In this document: one piece after another, positions 6,618-14,924 of the stretch
Layout: every line of letters starts with the position of its first letter
How positions within the stretch are numbered: position 1 is the first letter of the stretch
Assembly: GCF_001687545.1 (NCBI RefSeq)
Contig: NZ_CP016545.1
Location: 1,101,001-1,165,000 of the forward strand
Origin: Paraurantiacibacter namhicola
GTDB taxonomy: Bacteria > Pseudomonadota > Alphaproteobacteria > Sphingomonadales > Sphingomonadaceae
Direction of reading: 5' to 3'
Length of the DNA: 64,000 bases
Notes under the pieces: generated by a model
What the model was told of the DNA's origin: nothing
The model's database searches: none
Seen by the model: only the letters and a program-made list of their open reading frames with translations
Made by a program: the position numbers and the translations under genes

Positions 6618-7880
6618 ATGGATCATTTCGCACTTCGCGGCGGCGTCATGCATGCCGAGGATGTCCCGCTGCCGGTGATCGCGCAGGAGGTGGGCACGCC
6701 CGTTTACGTCTATTCGCGCGCCACGCTGGAGCGGCACGCGCGCGTGTTCCGCGATGCGCTGGCGCCGCTGGGCGATGTCCACCTGGCCTTTGCCGTGAAG
6801 AGCAATCCGAACCTGGCCGTACTGAAAGTGATGCAGCGCGAGGGGTACGGGGCGGATGTGGTTTCCGGCGGAGAACTGATGCGCGCGCTGGCGGCGGGCA
6901 TGGCGCCTGCCGATATCGTTTTCTCCGGCGTGGGCAAGACGCGCGCCGAGCTGCTGCTCGGGCTGGAAAAGCGGATCGGCCAGTTCAACATCGAGTCGCG
7001 AGAGGAAGGCCGCGAGCTGGCGGAGCTGGCGGCGGAGATGGGCGTGGAGGCGCAGGCGACCCTGCGGATCAATCCCGATGTGGACGCCGGGACGCATGAG
7101 AAAATTTCCACCGGGCGCGCGGAGAACAAGTTCGGCATCCCGCTGGTCCATGCGCGGGAGGCCTTTGCCGAGCTCGCCGGGCTGGAAGGGCTGAACCTGC
7201 GAGGCGTGGCGGTGCATATCGGCAGCCAGCTGCTGGACCTTTCCCCACTGGAAGCGGCTTTCGAGAAGGTCGGCGCGCTGGTGGCGAACCTGCGCGAGGC
7301 TGGCCACAACGTCACCCATGTCGATCTCGGCGGCGGGCTGGGCGTGCCTTACAAGGCGGGCGAGAACCCGCCGAGCCCGGCGGAATACGGCGCCATGGTG
7401 GCCCGCGTGACGAAGGGTTGGGGCGTGCACCTGACCTTCGAGCCAGGCCGGGTCATTGCCGGCAATGCTGGCGTCTTGCTGACCCGCGTCGTGCGCGTGA
7501 AGCGTGGCGGCAACGGCCCGCCCTTCGTGATCGTGGACGCGGCCATGAACGACCTCGCGCGCCCGGCGCTTTACGGCGCATGGCATGATTTCGAGGCGGT
7601 CGAACCCTCCGGCGAACGCATGACGGCCAATATCGTCGGGCCGATCTGCGAGACGGGCGATACCTTCGCGCGCGACCGCGAATGCGACGCACTGCAATCG
7701 GGCGAGCTGGCCGTGTTCCGCACCGCGGGAGCTTACGGGGCGACGATGGCCAGCAGTTACAACTCGCGCGGTTTCGTGGCCGAGGTCATGGTGGACGGCA
7801 GCCAGTGGGCCGTGGTGGCCGACCGCATTGCGCCGGAAACCATAAGCGACGCAGAGCGCGTTCCCGAATGGCTGGAATAG
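6618..7880 (+). CDS. lysA: Diaminopimelate decarboxylase
   Basis: A 420-residue PLP enzyme of alanine-racemase fold that converts meso-diaminopimelate to lysine. Lys61 in AFAVKSNPN is the Schiff-base lysine. The glycine-rich phosphate-binding segment is DLGGGLGVPY (about residues 236-245). The C-terminal active-site motifs GPICETGDTF and GAYGATMASSYNSR (Cys of the second and Tyr of the third motif) are intact. Length matches the family. It follows the small lipoprotein by three bases and overlaps the siroheme-like gene by 13 bases, so it is internal to an operon running from argH. Confidence 0.97.
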   Translation: MDHFALRGGVMHAEDVPLPVIAQEVGTPVYVYSRATLERHARVFRDALAPLGDVHLAFAVKSNPNLAVLKVMQREGYGADVVSGGELMRALAAGMAPADIVFSGVGKTRAELLLGLEKRIGQFNIESREEGRELAELAAEMGVEAQATLRINPDVDAGTHEKISTGRAENKFGIPLVHAREAFAELAGLEGLNLRGVAVHIGSQLLDLSPLEAAFEKVGALVANLREAGHNVTHVDLGGGLGVPYKAGENPPSPAEYGAMVARVTKGWGVHLTFEPGRVIAGNAGVLLTRVVRVKRGGNGPPFVIVDAAMNDLARPALYGAWHDFEAVEPSGERMTANIVGPICETGDTFARDRECDALQSGELAVFRTAGAYGATMASSYNSRGFVAEVMVDGSQWAVVADRIAPETISDAERVPEWLE

Positions 7881-8662
7881 CCAGCCTACCCCTGTTCCAC
7901 CGGATCGCCGGGCAGCCGGTCATCGTGCTGGGCGACGGGGCGGAAGCGGAGCCCAAGCGGCGCCTGGTGGAGCGGGCCGGCGGCGATGTCATCACCAATG
8001 CGCAGGACGGCATAGACCGGGGCGCAAGGCTGGCCTTCGTCGCGCTGGAGGATCCCGGCGATTGCGAGGCTGCGGCCATCCGCCTGCGCTGTGCCGGACT
8101 GCTGGTGAATGTCGTCGATCGGCCGGAGCTGTGCGACTTCACCACCCCTTCCATCCTGGACCGCGATCCCGTGCTGGTGGCGATCGGCACATCGGGCGCG
8201 TCGGCCGGTCTGGCGAAGCAGCTGCGCCTGCGGCTTGAAGCACTCCTGCCTTCCGGGCTGGGGCGGCTGGCGAATGCGCTGCATGCGTCACGCACGCGGC
8301 TGCGCGCACTGTTTCCCAATACGGGCGAGCGGCGGCAGGCGCTTGACCGCGCACTCGGCGTGGGCGGCGTGCTTGATCCACTGGACCCGGCAGCGCCAGA
8401 CCGTGTGGGTGACTGGCTGGATGGCACGCCCGATGCCGCCTCCGCCGGTGTGATCGAGTTCACGATTACCAGCGACGATCCGGAGGACCTGACTTTCCGG
8501 CAGGCGAGGTTGCTGGGGAGTGCGGACATGGTGCTGCACGATCCTGCCATCGCGCCAGCGGTGCTGGACCGGGCCCGGGCCGACGCGCGGCGCCGCGAAT
8601 TGCCGGCCGATCCGCCCGCCGATGCGGCGCTGGTGGTGGTGCTGAGAAAAGGTTCGGCTTGA
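7868..8662 (+). CDS. Precorrin-2 dehydrogenase / siroheme-synthase-like protein, short
   Basis: A 264-residue protein starting inside the end of lysA. Residues about 1-115 form a Rossmann domain (QPVIVLGDGAEAEPKRRLVE; the CysG phosphate loop is GGxxA-like) with the second strand NVVDRPELCDF. The loop SGASAGLAKQLR (about residues 110-121) corresponds to the catalytic Ser region of CysG. The last 65 residues (TSDDPEDLTFRQARLLGSAD and following) resemble only the first part of the uroporphyrinogen methyltransferase domain, which then stops. So the NAD-dependent dehydrogenase/ferrochelatase half looks whole, and the methyltransferase half is a remnant. The likely role is siroheme synthesis for sulfite reduction. 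Confidence 0.75.
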   Translation: MAGIASLPLFHRIAGQPVIVLGDGAEAEPKRRLVERAGGDVITNAQDGIDRGARLAFVALEDPGDCEAAAIRLRCAGLLVNVVDRPELCDFTTPSILDRDPVLVAIGTSGASAGLAKQLRLRLEALLPSGLGRLANALHASRTRLRALFPNTGERRQALDRALGVGGVLDPLDPAAPDRVGDWLDGTPDAASAGVIEFTITSDDPEDLTFRQARLLGSADMVLHDPAIAPAVLDRARADARRRELPADPPADAALVVVLRKGSA

Positions 8663-8775
8663 TTTTCAAGCTGTTCCATTTGCTAACAATCTTGTAATTT
8701 CAATGACTTGCGGGCGATCCGCATTCTCCTTGGCGTGCGTGGCAACGGGTCGCGCCGCAACCAAGGAGAAACGCC

Positions 8776-8925
8776 ATGAACCTTCCGAAGATCGATCTAT
8801 CCAGCCTGCCGGACCTGCCCGACATGCTGGGCATGTTCGGATCCATGATCGAAGCACCGGGCCATGACGACACCATCGTCGTGCTCGCCGCCTTCCTGTT
8901 CGAAATCATGCCGCCGAGCGGCTGA
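8776..8925 (+). CDS. Unknown 49-residue peptide, first gene of a three-gene cassette
   Basis: A small open frame with an excellent ribosome-binding site (AAGGAGA at 8763-8769, six bases before ATG). The peptide begins MNLPKIDLSSLPDLPDMLG, continues through GMFGSMIEAPGHDD, and has a hydrophobic patch IVVLAAFLFEIM before the end PPSG. There is no signal peptide and no Cys. It lies 18 bases before the 317-residue protein and 113 bases after the siroheme-like gene, so it heads its own transcript. Possible roles: a precursor peptide modified by the downstream proteins, or a small regulatory or antitoxin-like partner. No family was recognised. Confidence 0.7.
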   Translation: MNLPKIDLSSLPDLPDMLGMFGSMIEAPGHDDTIVVLAAFLFEIMPPSG

Positions 8926-8943
8926 GGCGAAGGAGGACCGGCC

Positions 8944-9897
8944 ATGCACATCGCTCCGCAGATTGCCGCCATGAAACGTGACCGCCAGGTCCAGCATCGG
9001 GCGCAGGCACGGATAATGGCCGCGCTGGACGAATGGCGGATGCGCGAAGCCGTGCGGCCGGTCCTCGCCGACCTGAAGGCGTATGGGGAGGGCCGCCCGC
9101 TTGCGGATGGCCCTGCCCTTGCGCGGGTGTTGACCGATCATGGCCACGCCGCCGCGCTGGCAGGCGGATTCACCACGCAATTGGTCCGCGCGCTTCGCGA
9201 CCAGCCGCTGGCACAGGTTCCGCTGCGCCACAGTTGCAGCGAAGGCAGCGCGGTCATCCAGCTCGCCGCATCGGGCCGTGCGCGGCTGTTCCTTGTCGCT
9301 CGGGAGGCTGGCGGAGAGGCCGCAGCGCACGCAAGTTTTCCAGACCGGGAGCGGCACGACCTGGTGCTGTCTGGCGAGGCCACGGCGCGCCTCGTATCGC
9401 GGCGCGGCGCCGAGCTTGCGACGCGGGAGGCATCTCTGTGTACCGGGACGTCGCTTGCACTGGATTGCCACGCGCAGGCGCTGGTCCTGCAGGACGTAAC
9501 GCGCCGCATGATCAGCTTGCGGCTGGAGCGCGATGCCGAGGCGCCGCGCCCGACCACGCTGGTCGATATTGCCAGCGGCGAGGTGCTCCACCGCGCGCAG
9601 GGCAGCAAGTTGGTCTCGCGCAAGGAAATGATGCTGGCGCTGCTGGGCCGGATGGAGCGCGCGGACGCCGCACCGGTCATGGCGCAGCAGGCGCTTGGGG
9701 ATGGCCCGGCAGAGCTTCGCTGGCAGGCGCTGCGCGAACTGCTGGCGTTGGATAGCGGTACCGGATTTGCCGCCCTGACTAGTCTCTCACGCCGGACCGG
9801 CGATTCACTAGCCAAGCATGCCGACAGCCTGCGCACGGCGCTGCTCGCCCGCCATCCGCTGATCGCCGCGAAGGAGGCGCAGGAATGCCCCGCGTAA
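8944..9897 (+). CDS. Hypothetical protein with C-terminal helical repeat domain
   Basis: A 317-residue cytoplasmic protein, not recognised. Residues 1-90 are helical and rich in Arg and Ala (start MHIAPQIAAMKRDRQVQHRA). Residues about 95-215 are strand-rich with small turn residues (LCTGTSLALDCHAQALVLQD), possibly a beta-sandwich or cupin-like barrel. The last 90 residues are helical pairs with the pattern ELRWQALRELLALDSGTGFA, reminiscent of HEAT-type repeats. The next protein has a matching C-terminal region ([18 protein letters not shown]), so the two are probably partly homologous. It overlaps that gene by 13 bases. No catalytic motif or export signal is visible. Confidence 0.75.
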   Translation: MHIAPQIAAMKRDRQVQHRAQARIMAALDEWRMREAVRPVLADLKAYGEGRPLADGPALARVLTDHGHAAALAGGFTTQLVRALRDQPLAQVPLRHSCSEGSAVIQLAASGRARLFLVAREAGGEAAAHASFPDRERHDLVLSGEATARLVSRRGAELATREASLCTGTSLALDCHAQALVLQDVTRRMISLRLERDAEAPRPTTLVDIASGEVLHRAQGSKLVSRKEMMLALLGRMERADAAPVMAQQALGDGPAELRWQALRELLALDSGTGFAALTSLSRRTGDSLAKHADSLRTALLARHPLIAAKEAQECPA

Positions 9898-10781
9898 TCG
9901 AACATCACGACACCGCCAGCTGCGAACTCGGCGATTGTATTGCGGCGCTGGCCGAACACGGCTTCGACCCGCGTGAAGAGGAAAGCCTGCAGCACGCCGC
10001 GCGCTGGCTGAAGCGCCTGGGCAACAATCGCGACTTCCTGGCCCAGCGGATGCTGGCCGAGCTGATGGGCGAAAGGAACGGCGACGAGGGCGGCAATTAC
10101 AGCCCGCAAGTGATCATGCTCTCACCGCCGGGCGGGGATTTCTTCCTGCGCGCCAATATCTGGCCGAGCGAAAACGAGGCGAGCTACCGCGCCAGCGGCG
10201 GCTCCAGCTTCGTCTACGGCCTGCCGCACGATCACGATTTCGATTTCCTGACCGTGGGCTATTTCGGCCCCGGCTATTGGTCCGATTACTATGAGTACGA
10301 TTACGGCGCGGTGGCGGGCGCCATAGGTGAGGCGGCAGGACTGCGTTTCGTGGAACGATCCCGCCTCGAAACCGGCAAGCTGATGCATTACCGCGCCCAC
10401 CGCGACGTCCACGCGCAGCTGCCGCCGGATAGCCTCTCGGTCAGCATCAACGTGATGCACTCGGGCGGCGCGCAGGGCTGGCTGGACCAATATGCCTTCG
10501 ACGTGGAGCAGGACCGGATCGCCAATGTTCTGGGCCGCAGCGCGTCGGAGGCCTTCATCCGCATCGCCGTGGGCCTGGGCGGGGACGACGCGCTGGAACT
10601 GGCGGAGAGTTTCGCGAAGGGCCATCCGTCCGACAGGATGCGCCTGACCGCGCTCGAGGCGCAGGAGGGTATGCTGGATGTAGAGGCGCGCGACGATTTG
10701 TGGCGCAGGGCCGAAGGCTCCGGCAGCCGGCTGATTGCTCTTGAGGCGACCCGGCGGCGGCGAGCCATGGCTGCCGCCTAG
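9885..10781 (+). CDS. Hypothetical cupin-like protein with C-terminal helical repeats
   Basis: A 298-residue protein, third gene of the cassette. Residues about 65-205 look like a cupin barrel. [20 protein letters not shown] (about residues 111-130) holds a His-x-His pair, and [20 protein letters not shown] (about 168-187) holds further His and Asp residues, a plausible metal site. The C-terminal 85 residues are helical repeats resembling the C-terminus of the preceding protein. A non-heme iron oxygenase or ligand-binding cupin is possible; neither is shown. Homologues are sometimes labelled transposase in databases as far as I recall, which nothing here supports. The end overlaps ruvX convergently by four bases. 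Confidence 0.75.
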
Positions 10782-11245
10782 ATCACCCCGCCTGCCATCG
10801 CATCGATCGCGCCTTGCAGGATCACGGCGGCGGCATGGCTGTCGATGCGTTCGGCGCGTTTGGCGCGGCTGAAGTCCTGGGCGATCAGGTCGCGCTCTGC
10901 GCTGGCGGTGGAGAGGCGCTCGTCCCACAGCAGGATCGGCAGGCCCAGCGCATCGAGGTTGCGGGCATAGGCGCGGGCGCTCTGGGCGCGGGGGCCTTCG
11001 CTGCCATCCATGTTGCGGGGCAGGCCAATCACGATGCCCTTCACGCTGCGCGCCGCGCACAGGTCGCGCAGTTTCGCGCAGTCGCGGGTGAACTTGCCGC
11101 GTTCCAATGTCTTGTCAGCCGTGGCGAAGCGCCAGCCTGCATCGCACAGCGCCACGCCAATGGTCTTGGTGCCCAGGTCCAGGCCCAGCAGCACGCCGCC
11201 ATCGGGCAGCGCGCCGGAAAACTCATGCGCGATCTCTGCAATCAT
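10778..11245 (-). CDS. ruvX: Holliday junction resolvase-like RNase YqgF/RuvX
   Basis: A 155-residue RNase H-fold protein. The motif [13 protein letters not shown] (about residues 21-33) carries the first catalytic Asp, [11 protein letters not shown] (about 107-117) the Glu and [12 protein letters not shown] (about 132-143) the second Asp. The signature [13 protein letters not shown] sits between them. YqgF-family enzymes are linked to 16S rRNA 5' end processing as well as junction resolution. The start codon overlaps the stop of the DUF3089 gene by four bases (ATGA), so both are on one transcript. The 3' end meets the cupin-like gene. Confidence 0.94.
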
Positions 11246-12459
11246 GCGCCCGCCGCGGTGCCCGCACTGCCTTCACGCGCGCGCAGGCGGCGCTCCACAT
11301 CCACCTGCAGGTTCCGCCAGAACAGCATGATGTCATAGACGTGGTAATTGTTGCCCGGCAGCACGCCGGGGCCAAGGTCCGGCGGATCGCCGATCAGCAG
11401 GAGGCCGTCCTCATCGCAGCGGGCAGGCACGGCTGCGCGGACGAGGGCGCCATCGGTCAGGCTCTCGTTCGGGACCAGCGTGCCAAGGTTCTCTTCCGCG
11501 CTGGCTGCGCTGCCGCGAATGCCGGTTATCGGATTGACGCACAGGATCGGGCTGTCCCCGCGCGGCTCGCCGGTGAAGCCGGGCGTCGCGGAATAGCGTT
11601 TCATAATCATGCCGGCATCGGCCGGTTCGGCGAAGCTGGACCATGTCAAAATGCAGGCGGGCTGGTCGGGGCGGTCGCAGGCGGGCAGGGGCAGGGCCGG
11701 CAAGTCGTAAGTCACCGAAACCGGCCAGCCGATGGGATAGACCATGGCAATGCGGCTCTCGACCGGCGTGCCGGCCACTTTCTCTCGCAGCAGTTGCAGG
11801 ATGTGCCAGCCACCCTGGCTATGGCCTGCCAGCACGATCGGCAGCGAAGGGTCCGCTTGTTCCAGGAAGATATCGAAGGCCTGCTCCACGTCGCGATAAG
11901 CGGAGTCCAGTGCCATCTGCGCTTCCGGCTCGTCCGTCAGGAAGGCGCCGGCCGTGGCCTGCCGATATTTCGGGGCCCAGATTTCCGCCGCCCGGTTGAA
12001 CGGGCTGGCCATGGCCTTGATGATCAGGCGCGAGCGGCTTTCCGTCGCCTCGTCGCCGAGCGGGGCGTTCCATTTGTCCCGGTCGATGAAGCTGGTGGGG
12101 TGAACGAAGAACACGGCGAAGCGCGGTGCGGCCAGTTCGTCCGAGGCTGGGCCTGCATCAGGTTCCTCGCCCATTGCAGCGCGGCCCTGTGCAGATGAGG
12201 CGGGGTCGCCCTCGCCCTCGCCGGTCTCCTCGAATTGCGGCTGGTAACGCGTGATATCGTCGCCCGCCTTGCCGGGGCGAGCATACCACAGGTCGAAGCC
12301 CTCATAAGCATTCGGCTCCAGCGCGGCCTGCTCCACGAATTCCTCGTCCGGCACAAAGGCCATGCGCGTCAGGTCATCCTGGAACAGGTTCAGCGCAAAC
12401 AGGCCGGCTATCGCGGCGATGATGCAGAATGCGACGAAATAAAGGAACTTACGTGCCAA
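11242..12459 (-). CDS. DUF3089-family alpha/beta-hydrolase, membrane anchored
   Basis: A 405-residue protein. An N-terminal hydrophobic segment ([19 protein letters not shown], residues 5-23) looks like an uncleaved anchor, leaving the body in the periplasm. Residues about 110-390 fit the DUF3089 alpha/beta-hydrolase pattern: [18 protein letters not shown] near the start, the nucleophile elbow GHSQGG (about residues 215-220) and a C-terminal [12 protein letters not shown] carrying the probable catalytic His. The acidic linker at 70-105 is low complexity. Natural substrate unknown; an esterase or lipase-like role is likely. It overlaps the permease gene by 11 bases and ruvX by 4. Confidence 0.85.
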
Positions 12460-13564
12460 CTAGCTGACCTTCTGTTTTGCTTTTCGCGTCTTCCTCGGCC
12501 GTCTCGCTGCGGCGCTCCAGCGCAACTTTCAGCATGGCCATCAGCGGATCGGCCAGGAACAGGCCGAGGATGCCGAACAGGATGCCGAAGATCAGCTGCG
12601 CGCCCAGCACCAGTGCGGGGGCGAGGTCAACCGTCTTCTTGGCGATGAGCGGGATAACGACGTACCCGTCGAACACCTGCACCAGGAAATAGACGAAGAT
12701 GGTGTAGAGCCCCATGTCCGTGCCGCCGGAGAAGCCGACCAACACCATCAGCACGCCCGATATTACCGCGCCGATATTGGGGATGAAGGCCAGCAGGCCG
12801 GTCAGGATTCCCAGCAAGGCCGCCATCGGCACGCCGTACCAGGCCAGCATGGCCCAGGTGAAAATCCCCTCGAACAGCATGCCGACCAGTCGCCCTGCCA
12901 TCAGGCGGCGCATGGTGAAGGCCATCTCGTCCAGCGTGACCAGCAGGTCGCTGCGGTGCTTCTTGGGGACCATCCATTCGACGCCGCGTTCGTACAGGCG
13001 CGGCTCCACGGCGATGTAGATGCCGATGATCATGATCAGGAACAGCGTGGCAAGCCCGCCAAAGATGCCGCCAATCGCCTTGGTCACCGTGCCCACACCG
13101 CTGACCAGCTGGCCGGCGATGGATTCGATATTGTCGGTGCTGATGGCAAAGCCGCGTGCCTGCAGCCACTCGACGGTCGCCCCCAGCTGCTTGTTGACGA
13201 TACTGGGAAATTCGGCCGCCTGCTGCGATATTTGCGAGCCTGCAAACAGGCTGAGCCAGATGAAGAAGGCAGTCGTCAGCGCAAGGACGATGATGATGCG
13301 GATCATGCGCCCCACGGGCAGGACGCGCTCCAGCAGCCGCGCGCCGCCATCGATCATGGCCGCGAAGACCAGCGCACCAAAGATCACCAGCAGCGATTGC
13401 GAGATGTATACCGCCAGCATGGCGATCCCCACCACAGCCACCCAGATCAGCGCCCTTTGCGCCTCGAAGCGCAGTTTCGGGCTTTCGATGTAAGTGGGGG
13501 AGGCGCCCAGCGGCTCTTCGCCGTCGTGGTCATGGTTTTCCTGCGCTTCAGGCTTGTCGGTCAT
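12449..13564 (-). CDS. AI-2E family permease (TqsA/YdiK-like)
   Basis: A 371-residue integral membrane protein with about eight transmembrane helices. The hydrophobic clusters are at residues about 40-85, 95-120, 175-200 and 245-340. The family hallmark near the C-terminus is present: NIGAVISGVLMVLVGFSGG, then VFDGYVVIPLIAKKTVDLAP. The N-terminus is a short acidic, His-rich cytoplasmic tail. Members export autoinducer-2 in E. coli or act as Na+/H+ antiporters in others, so the substrate here is open. The start at 13564 is fixed by the ATGA overlap with the lepB stop. It is co-transcribed with lepB and the DUF3089 gene. Confidence 0.88.
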   Translation of the reverse strand: MTDKPEAQENHDHDGEEPLGASPTYIESPKLRFEAQRALIWVAVVGIAMLAVYISQSLLVIFGALVFAAMIDGGARLLERVLPVGRMIRIIIVLALTTAFFIWLSLFAGSQISQQAAEFPSIVNKQLGATVEWLQARGFAISTDNIESIAGQLVSGVGTVTKAIGGIFGGLATLFLIMIIGIYIAVEPRLYERGVEWMVPKKHRSDLLVTLDEMAFTMRRLMAGRLVGMLFEGIFTWAMLAWYGVPMAALLGILTGLLAFIPNIGAVISGVLMVLVGFSGGTDMGLYTIFVYFLVQVFDGYVVIPLIAKKTVDLAPALVLGAQLIFGILFGILGLFLADPLMAMLKVALERRSETAEEDAKSKTEGQLVGT

Positions 13565-14508
13565 TGCGGTGTTTCCCCCTGCCGCTGCGGATTCAGGATC
13601 GGCGGGCGCAGGCTGCTCCAAGCGCGGCCCGTGCGCAAGCTTGGCCACCATGTCGCCGGGTTCCAGCCAGTGCTGCCGTCGAGCGAAAAGGTGATGATTT
13701 CCGCGCGTCCACCCACATCGGCCAGGTCCACCGGACCGCCAAGGCCGCCGGAAAACTCGCCTGCGGGCACGCGGCTGTCAGCGGAATGGTCGCGGTTGTC
13801 GCCCAGCATGAAGACATGGCCCTCGGGCACGGTCCGCTCCGCGAAATTGTCCGGCGCAATGTCGCGGTGGTCGATGATCCGGTAGCTAGCGCCATTGGGC
13901 AGCGTCTCGCGGTAGGTTGGCGGTTCATATACCTCGGTGCCGTCTTCCAGCGTGACGCGGTAATCGTCGAACATCTCGAGGCAGGGAGAGCCATCGCACA
14001 GATGGTGGTCCACGGGGATGCGGGCCGGTGCTTCCAGCTCGCGCTTCACGGCCTTGCCGTTCAGGATCAGCCGCCCGTCGATCATCGCCACACGGTCACC
14101 CGGCAGGGCGACCACGCGCTTGATGTAATCTTCCTTCCGGTCCGGCGGAACGGCGATCACGATGTCGCCATATTCGGGCGTCGCCGCGCTCAGCCGCCAG
14201 TCCGCGCGCGGCAGCACGTGGAAGCTGGCCGAGACCCAGCTCCAGCCATAGGGATATTTGCTCACCACCAGCCGGTCGCCCACCAGCAGGGTCGGCGTCA
14301 TGCTGGCGCTGGGGATATAGAAGGGCTTGGCCACGAAGGTGTGGAAGGCCAATACGCAGAGCAGCATCAGCGCCAGGCCGCGCAGCTCCACCCACCAGTT
14401 GATCTGCTGCGTCTCGTCCTCCGGCGCAGGCGTGCCATTGCCGTGGGCGCCATCAAGCGATCCGGGCGGTGCGGGTTGCGGCGATTCTGGCTGGCTCTGG
14501 TCGGCCAT
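13561..14508 (-). CDS. lepB: Signal peptidase I
   Basis: A 315-residue type I leader peptidase. A Pro-rich cytoplasmic N-terminus (about 35 residues) precedes one transmembrane helix (residues about 40-60). The box B motif PSASMTPTL carries the nucleophile Ser, and YIKRVVALPGD carries the general-base Lys. The C-terminal box is MLGDNRDHSADSR. The enzyme cleaves Sec and Tat signal peptides on the periplasmic face. The start at 14508 gives MADQSQPESPQ; longer in-frame starts would overlap acpS. It lies between acpS and the permease gene on one minus-strand transcript. Confidence 0.95.
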   Translation of the reverse strand: MADQSQPESPQPAPPGSLDGAHGNGTPAPEDETQQINWWVELRGLALMLLCVLAFHTFVAKPFYIPSASMTPTLLVGDRLVVSKYPYGWSWVSASFHVLPRADWRLSAATPEYGDIVIAVPPDRKEDYIKRVVALPGDRVAMIDGRLILNGKAVKRELEAPARIPVDHHLCDGSPCLEMFDDYRVTLEDGTEVYEPPTYRETLPNGASYRIIDHRDIAPDNFAERTVPEGHVFMLGDNRDHSADSRVPAGEFSGGLGGPVDLADVGGRAEIITFSLDGSTGWNPATWWPSLRTGRAWSSLRPPILNPQRQGETPQ

Positions 14509-14519
14509 GGCGGGCGAAT

Positions 14520-14924
14520 TCACTTTAGGGGATGGGCCTCGATAATCACGAAGGCCTGGGCCCATGGATGATCGTCGGTGAGGGTGAGATGAATGCGCGC
14601 CTCATGCCCATCCGGCACCATTTGCGCAAGCCGCTCTGCCGCCCCTCCGGCAAGGGCGAGGGTGGGCGCGCCGCTGGGGGCGTTGACCACGCCGATATCG
14701 GACATGAAGACGCCGCGCTTGAAACCCGTGCCCACGGCCTTGGAGAAAGCCTCCTTGGCGGCGAAGCGCTTGGCGTAAGTCCCGGCTTTGGTGAACGGGC
14801 GCTTGGCCGCCTTGGCGCGTTCGGTCTCGGTAAAGACGCGCTGCTCGAACCGCTCGCCGAAGCGGTCGAGAGAATTCTGGATTCGCTCGATATTGCACAG
14901 GTCAGAGCCGAGGCCGATGATCAT
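14520..14924 (-). CDS. acpS: Holo-[acyl-carrier-protein] synthase
   Basis: A 134-residue 4'-phosphopantetheinyl transferase that activates acyl carrier protein for fatty-acid synthesis. The metal-binding Asp lies in [13 protein letters not shown] (residues 3-15) and the Glu/Lys pair in [15 protein letters not shown] (about 53-67). The C-terminal strand [18 protein letters not shown] is standard. Length is typical. It precedes lepB by 11 bases. The gap of about 120 bases upstream to pdxJ is filled by a palindromic repeat. The pdxJ-acpS-lepB order is common in alphaproteobacteria. Confidence 0.96.

Follow-up and report, generated by a model that had tools for sequence, protein, structure and literature searches.

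What does a gene for a 49-residue peptide do directly in front of two genes for proteins that match no family in Pfam or NCBIfam? Three such genes lie in Paraurantiacibacter namhicola within a stretch of 64,000 nucleotides, which is referred to here as the window. The first-pass annotation, made from the letters of this stretch, recognised in them the layout of a modified-peptide or peptide-regulated system. With modest confidence we favour reading the cassette as a minimal system for the maturation of a ribosomal peptide, in which the third protein (C) would oxidise or hydroxylate the peptide and the second (B) would act as its partner.

The cassette is a tight operon at a site that is fixed in the window's clade

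Upon re-reading of the sequence, the previously given coordinates and frames proved right, as did the 18-base gap between the stop of the peptide gene and the start of B and the 13-base overlap of B with C (9885-9897). The three genes follow each other on the same strand as a tight operon of about 2 kb (Table 1). A very strong ribosome-binding site had been singled out for the peptide gene; its AAGGAG is confirmed, but AAGGAG or AAGGAGG is found 7 bases 5' of the start codon in all three genes, and the feature is therefore operon-wide and not peptide-specific. The 13-base overlap of B and C recurs in 58 of 72 loci (71 loci and the window), with a 1-base overlap in 8 and other spacings in 4, while in the remaining 2 B is absent by this test. 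A promoter scan of the cassette found none, a terminator scan returned 5 terminator-like hits where 1.3 were expected, and Rfam gave no match at the cassette.

Table 1. Features of the three-gene cassette, in positions of the window.
Feature	Positions	Strand	Basis
Shine-Dalgarno AAGGAG, peptide gene	8763..8768	+	sequence; 7 bases before ATG
49-residue peptide, proposed precursor	8776..8925	+	homologues upstream of B, co-occurrence, dN/dS
Shine-Dalgarno AAGGAGG, gene B	8930..8936	+	sequence
Protein B, 317 aa, proposed partner/pseudoenzyme	8944..9897	+	model, fold matches, HEAT_2, paralogy with C, His columns
Shine-Dalgarno AAGGAGG, gene C, within the 3' end of B	9871..9877	+	sequence
Protein C, 298 aa, proposed catalytic oxygenase	9885..10781	+	model, fold match, invariant residues
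H115-D116-H117, H115 and H117 proposed metal ligands	10227..10235	+	invariant 41/41 and 30/30
H176, third proposed metal ligand	10410..10412	+	invariant; role inferred

The cassette is flanked upstream by a sirohaem-synthase-like gene (7868-8662, matching PF13241) and downstream by ruvX on the minus strand (10778-11245, PF03652). Homologues of both neighbours are present at 27 of the 111 loci that we compared, many of which are short, and if lysA is counted as well, 56 loci have one or more of the three genes and 55 have none. Across the window's clade the chromosomal position of the cassette is fixed, and in this respect it is more like a housekeeping locus than a typical natural-product cluster. 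A recent mobile origin of the window copy was considered and is ruled out by the same neighbours across the clade. The window is part of a single contig of 2.59 Mb, in which C was matched once and the peptide search gave one full match and one match at chance level (E 0.48). By eye, no exporter or protease was recognised among the neighbours of the cassette; the genes beyond ruvX (11242-14565, minus strand) were named by the same means as a hydrolase-like gene, an AI-2E/PerM-type permease-like membrane protein and a signal-peptidase-I-like gene.

The peptide is conserved in its first half and divergent in its second

The first-pass annotation had made its proposal depend on a peptide frame that is conserved beside homologues of the two proteins and coding in its third-position pattern, and the proposal survived both tests. 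The GC content of the frame by codon position is 0.61/0.37/0.84, and the homologous peptides show a median dN/dS of 0.34 (crude NG86; 314 usable of 351 pairs from 27 sequences), with 78% of the pairs below 0.5 and dS high in many of them. The peptide sequence is therefore coding and under selection. Using a profile started from the window peptide, we found a homologue (E<1e-3) just upstream of B at 98 of the 111 loci, among which two pairs represent the same locus fetched twice. As the profile is iterative and was built from the same candidate pool, its E-values are flattered, a bias addressed by a control in which it was run against 28,642 ORF starts elsewhere in the loci. This control gave 4 hits, all of them from one position in the related loci L042 and L043; the two ORFs concerned proved to be additional peptide genes belonging to a larger cluster. 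The 13 loci lacking a peptide at this threshold comprise three at contig ends (L026, L065, L114), four with weaker matches (L072, L096, L098, L099), three with plausible but dissimilar peptides (L067, L094, L100), one whose peptide turned up in the search of the family's genomes (L116) and two with no nameable peptide upstream of B (L095, L097).

On our division of the window peptide, residues 1-30 would be leader-like (IDLSSLPDLPDMLGMFGS) and residues 31-49 would form a hydrophobic tail; the peptide contains no Cys, Tyr or Trp. Sphingomonad peptides have in common an N-terminal half of the approximate form IDxxxLPxLxTxVGxxGS, whereas their second halves are different. Sorted by their tails, 67 of 102 peptides are of the type DD...hydrophobic...YE/D, 18 carry VGG-C and 17 neither, the window peptide itself having DD...FE. 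Only one column of the peptide alignment, G22, is invariant, and no core residue is common to all. At more distant loci short peptides with V/I-rich tails occur, and those of loci L167 and L168 contain LTLEDAEFVSGGG, which we take to be a double-glycine leader. Searches of Pfam and NCBIfam with ten peptides from relatives gave no match. As far as layout goes, the genes with their conserved N-terminal half and divergent tail fit what is expected of a RiPP precursor with its enzyme. Cysteine oxidation is excluded for the window peptide, which has no Cys; although suggested by the fold of C, it is also in general not the reaction, since the window peptide lacks both Cys and Tyr and Cys is present in only 22 of the 102 peptides.

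Protein C has the predicted fold of thiol dioxygenases and protein B is probably its degenerate paralogue

B and C had been called unrecognised, and indeed Pfam and NCBIfam hold no match for any of the three window proteins, nor NCBIfam for the 41 C proteins aligned here. A sequence search of the PDB gave best E-values of 0.14 and 0.55 (Tse1, XaxB and others), which were taken as chance. The structures of B and C were predicted, as the first-pass annotation had recommended. The model of C (pLDDT 92.1, from the 41-sequence alignment) presents a thiol dioxygenase fold over residues 9-217, followed by a helical tail in which HEAT repeats are matched in 5 of the 41 homologues at E<=0.1. Foldseek places mercaptosuccinate dioxygenase first (E 7e-8), a second aligner superimposes C on 4tlf_C (Z 13.5, rmsd 3.4, 160 residues aligned), and the 50 structure entries in its list all belong to the thiol dioxygenases, if the term is used broadly. 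The predicted fold of C, earlier described as cupin-like, is more precisely like that of cysteine dioxygenase (CDO).

The His-x-His motif noted in C before is borne out by the alignment, in which all 41 proteins have H115, H117 and H176. In a set of 30 C-like proteins from 26 loci (26 of the 30 lying outside alignment A1, with several close pairs), R89, H115, H117, Y131, D174, H176, Q178 and N189 are invariant throughout. Motif spacing and fold suggest that the three histidines serve as metal ligands, and the fold that the metal would be iron. At the level of sequence C is remote from the known enzymes: the CDO family profile PF05995 matches none of the 41 C proteins at E<=0.1, and the C profile hardly matches five CDO relatives in hhalign (E 0.06). 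Thiol dioxygenases possess an outer-sphere Ser-His-Tyr triad; in C, on a weak alignment, the corresponding position is Ser-Asn-Met/Leu, namely S187, N189 and residue 191 (M 23, L 13, V 3, I 2 of 41). At two loci (L157, L161) a shorter C-like protein was seen downstream of a gene that by eye is hslU-like, with the histidines kept and the YYEYD stretch absent.

Protein B is likewise modelled with high pLDDT (94.6) and displays a cupin fold with C-terminal HEAT-like helices, HEAT_2 being matched in 28 of 41 B homologues at E<=0.1. Its top Foldseek matches are CapF and other cupins (sugar-phosphate isomerases), and the second aligner puts the cysteine dioxygenase 6u4l first (Z 11.2, rmsd 3.7, 159 residues), a score that exceeds that of unrelated cupins (10.2) by only about 1. 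Because these scores lie so close, the likeness of B to CDO rests on its paralogy with C. This paralogy is visible in hhalign, where the profiles of B and C match with probability 90 and E 1.6e-6 along 141 columns that begin in the final part of the barrel and continue through the tail, while the B profile hardly matches the five CDO relatives (E 0.26). B has no conserved histidine, the best column holding H in 17 of 41 sequences (in the tail) and the next in 15 of 41. Most simply, B and C would be a duplicated pair of which B has lost the metal site, and we now read B as a degenerate paralogue of C. The two genes keep their order elsewhere, with B preceding C at 38 of 40 further loci; of the two misses, one is due to a contig end and the other is L097, where a 239-aa ORF takes the place of B.

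Peptide and C co-occur in the window's family, and C is sporadic beyond it

The first-pass annotation had asked whether the peptide and the proteins co-occur across sphingomonads, which they do. Among 199 genomes of the window's family, 67 contain both the peptide and C, 1 the peptide only, 7 C only and 124 neither, which gives C in 74 and the peptide in 68 genomes; each count was made on 199 genomes, and the listed handles agree. The Fisher p value calculated for this table ignores shared ancestry. Of 69 peptide places, 66 lie on the same strand as C and 905-1171 bases upstream of it. One genome (G413) has a weak peptide match and no C, in another (G544) C has an internal stop and the peptide is 40 kb away, and in a third (G573) C is matched as a fragment near the peptide. 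The cassette is mostly present in one copy per genome.

Outside the window's family C is sporadic. Its relatives at the 71 loci from the genome collection stem nearly all from sphingomonads or proteobacterial bins, the exceptions being one Alteromonas and one Lysobacter. C was found in 15 of 398 genomes of the phylum, 13 of the 15 belonging to the window's family, with the window's own genome included; in 10 of 198 genomes of the family of the Lysobacter locus and 9 of 196 of that of the Alteromonas locus, centre genomes included; and in 2 of 369 genomes of the class to which G302 belongs, a genome from the same family as the Lysobacter locus. Plasmid records gave 2 matches in 72,556. At L098-L100, B and C have a GC3 of 0.28-0.49 and their neighbours mostly one above 0.6, a sign of recent horizontal transfer; at L098 the cassette lies between yidC and a GTPase gene.

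Expanded and exporter-linked clusters occur in relatives

In some relatives the unit is embedded in larger clusters. The locus of Sphingomonas sp. S2M10 (L069/L180) begins with an ECF sigma factor, followed by peptide 1, B1, C1 and a MarR-like protein that scores below the Pfam cut-off, and continues with peptides 2-4, B2, C2, an ABC exporter, an unidentified gene, an ABC ATPase and two MacB/FtsX permeases, which amounts to four peptides and two B-C pairs. Clusters of this type are a better place than the window to seek a secreted product. Two further loci (L042, L043) are expanded in a similar manner: here, too, two C genes and a MarR-like gene are accompanied by three or four different peptides. 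In L042, L043 and L069, B2 is preceded by a row of two or three different peptide genes. L042 and L043 come from genomes that contain another C at a separate place; one such copy, L183, follows a peptide of the DD/YE type, and no exporter was recognised by eye in its ORF list. As these genomes hold a further C of this kind, the expanded form and the one without a recognised exporter seem to coexist in one genome.

Exporter-type genes were found beside the unit at L069/L180 and at the gammaproteobacterial loci L067, L071, L154, L160, L163, L164 and the plasmid L184, where it adjoins at least one of ABC ATPases, ABC-2 permeases, HlyD and MacB/FtsX genes. These Pfam-scanned loci are cases and do not give a rate, as the scan of neighbours covered loci other than L094-L097, L099, L100, L155-L159, L161, L162, L165, L166, L168 and the minimal ones. 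Pfam gave no match for the HlyD-like gene of L180 or the permease-like genes of L154 and L160, and the permease of L163 scores below the cut-off. In the plasmid record of L184, 'hypothetical protein' is the annotation of C, of the preceding gene and of the ABC genes that follow. Another plasmid, Vibrio p1-ED002 (L185), was seen to carry a weak relative of C and a preceding hypothetical gene between recombinase/Tn3 transposase and restriction-modification genes. L164 has three B-C pairs within about 15 kb, together with ABC, HlyD and MacB genes.

Proposed working of the cassette and alternative explanations

In the working that we propose, the 49-residue peptide would be the precursor, its conserved N-terminal half serving as recognition leader and its hydrophobic C-terminal half being acted on. 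B and C would probably form one heteromeric enzyme, in which C may hold a mononuclear iron in the three-histidine CDO-like site and oxidise or hydroxylate the peptide tail, while B, having no metal site, may bind the leader or stabilise C through its HEAT-like tail. The product of the larger clusters would probably be exported; in the window's organism it may stay inside the cell or leave it through an exporter encoded elsewhere. That no exporter was recognised next to the cassette and that the window's genome has no C39 domain (which 8 of 14 control genomes do have) suggests that the usual double-glycine route is unlikely for the window product.

This proposal draws on gene order, conservation, co-occurrence, the predicted folds, the invariant residues, the paralogy of B and C and the exporter linkage in some other genomes, all of which are shown or strongly supported. 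The modified-peptide layout put forward in the first-pass annotation is partly supported, namely by the co-occurrence, by the division into a leader-like half and a divergent tail, by the three-histidine site of C within a CDO fold and by the exporters in some genomes, while the modification itself we still infer. More tentatively, the cassette could stand for a new class of peptide maturation by a heteromeric CDO-fold oxygenase in Alpha- and Gammaproteobacteria, the window cassette being an example of a pared-down form kept for a role inside the cell.

The exporter genes, the double-glycine-type leader and the ECF/MarR-like regulators beside the unit in some other genomes would also suit an unmodified bacteriocin-like or signalling peptide, with B and C acting in immunity, sensing or regulation, and the lack of a universal core residue for modification agrees with this. 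We nevertheless regard it as unlikely, as the three histidines and five more residues of C are invariant across distant homologues, which points to catalysis, and as neither C nor B matches a named immunity family. Somewhat less probable again is a peptide that is a permanent subunit or regulator of a small-molecule enzyme formed by B and C, its hydrophobic tail docking on their HEAT-like tails. The tight cassette, its fixed site in one clade and the lack of a recognised exporter in the window accord with such a subunit, as does the fact that many solved CDO-fold enzymes use small thiols; against it stand the strong divergence of the tails, the several different peptides beside the B-C pairs of L042, L043 and L069 and the exporter genes in other genomes.

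We give little credence to a toxin-antitoxin or anti-phage unit: a small hydrophobic peptide with a partner would fit, and two relatives of C are plasmid-borne, the weaker of which is flanked by recombinase and restriction genes, but PADLOC, with its anti-phage models, gave no match for the three window proteins, the cassette is mostly single-copy and at a fixed site in the window's clade, and C retains its proposed catalytic residues. Hardly credible, finally, is a peptide without function of its own whose translation controls B and C by attenuation, for which the short ORF 18 bases upstream of B, the strong ribosome-binding sites and the position of the extra peptides of L042, L043 and L069 likewise upstream of a B gene could be cited, but which is at odds with the purifying selection on the amino-acid sequence (as a sole role it is rejected on this ground), with the row of two or three different peptide genes before B2 and with the lack of an Rfam match.

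Relation to known systems

The closest structural relatives of C are the thiol dioxygenases (cysteine, 3-mercaptopropionate and mercaptosuccinate dioxygenase and PCO/ADO; PDB 4tlf, 8vni, 6u4l), enzymes whose CDO fold oxidises small thiols and N-terminal cysteines. They have in common with C the fold of its residues ~10-217 and the HxH...H three-histidine pattern. C differs from them in having no CDO Pfam match, an extra helical tail and, as companions, a histidine-less paralogue and a peptide. The window peptide offers no thiol; a small thiol may still be a substrate of C. If the maturation reading is true, the CDO fold has come to serve in peptide maturation together with a pseudoenzyme partner, in a small, self-contained cassette (~2 kb) whose window proteins have no Pfam or NCBIfam profile and which is annotated 'hypothetical protein' in the two plasmid records. 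This raises the question of why a version with no recognised exporter has been retained in the window's organism.

In layout the cassette resembles another group of enzymes, the MNIO (DUF692) systems. The MNIO fold differs from the CDO-like fold, and Pfam gave no DUF692 match in B or C. MNIO RiPP systems consist of a precursor gene, an iron oxygenase and a partner protein (PMC12257519), an arrangement mirrored here by a proposed precursor, an oxygenase-like protein and its proposed partner. By this analogy the cassette would work like RiPP systems which pair an iron oxygenase with a partner, but by means of another fold. A second likeness is to PbsQ, a cupin-like, JmjC-related hydroxylase that acts on ornithine in a biphenomycin-like RiPP pathway including several other metalloenzymes, and thus a cupin-like protein which hydroxylates a residue of a ribosomal precursor; it differs from C in its relation to JmjC, and the passages describing it mention no HEAT tail or degenerate twin (PMC12257519). 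Among the matches listed in full-text searches of open-licence papers there was no CDO-fold or HEAT/cupin peptide system, which is no proof of absence.

Double-glycine leader peptides are exported by C39 ABC transporters. The window peptide has GHDD in place of the double glycine, and its genome is without the C39 domain. A likeness to such peptides is found in the motif of L167 and L168 and in the 18 of 102 relatives with VGG-C. At L167/L168 the B-C pair and the double-glycine peptide lie a few kb away from a gene for NRPS-kind adenylation and carrier-protein domains (Pfam, L167 only).
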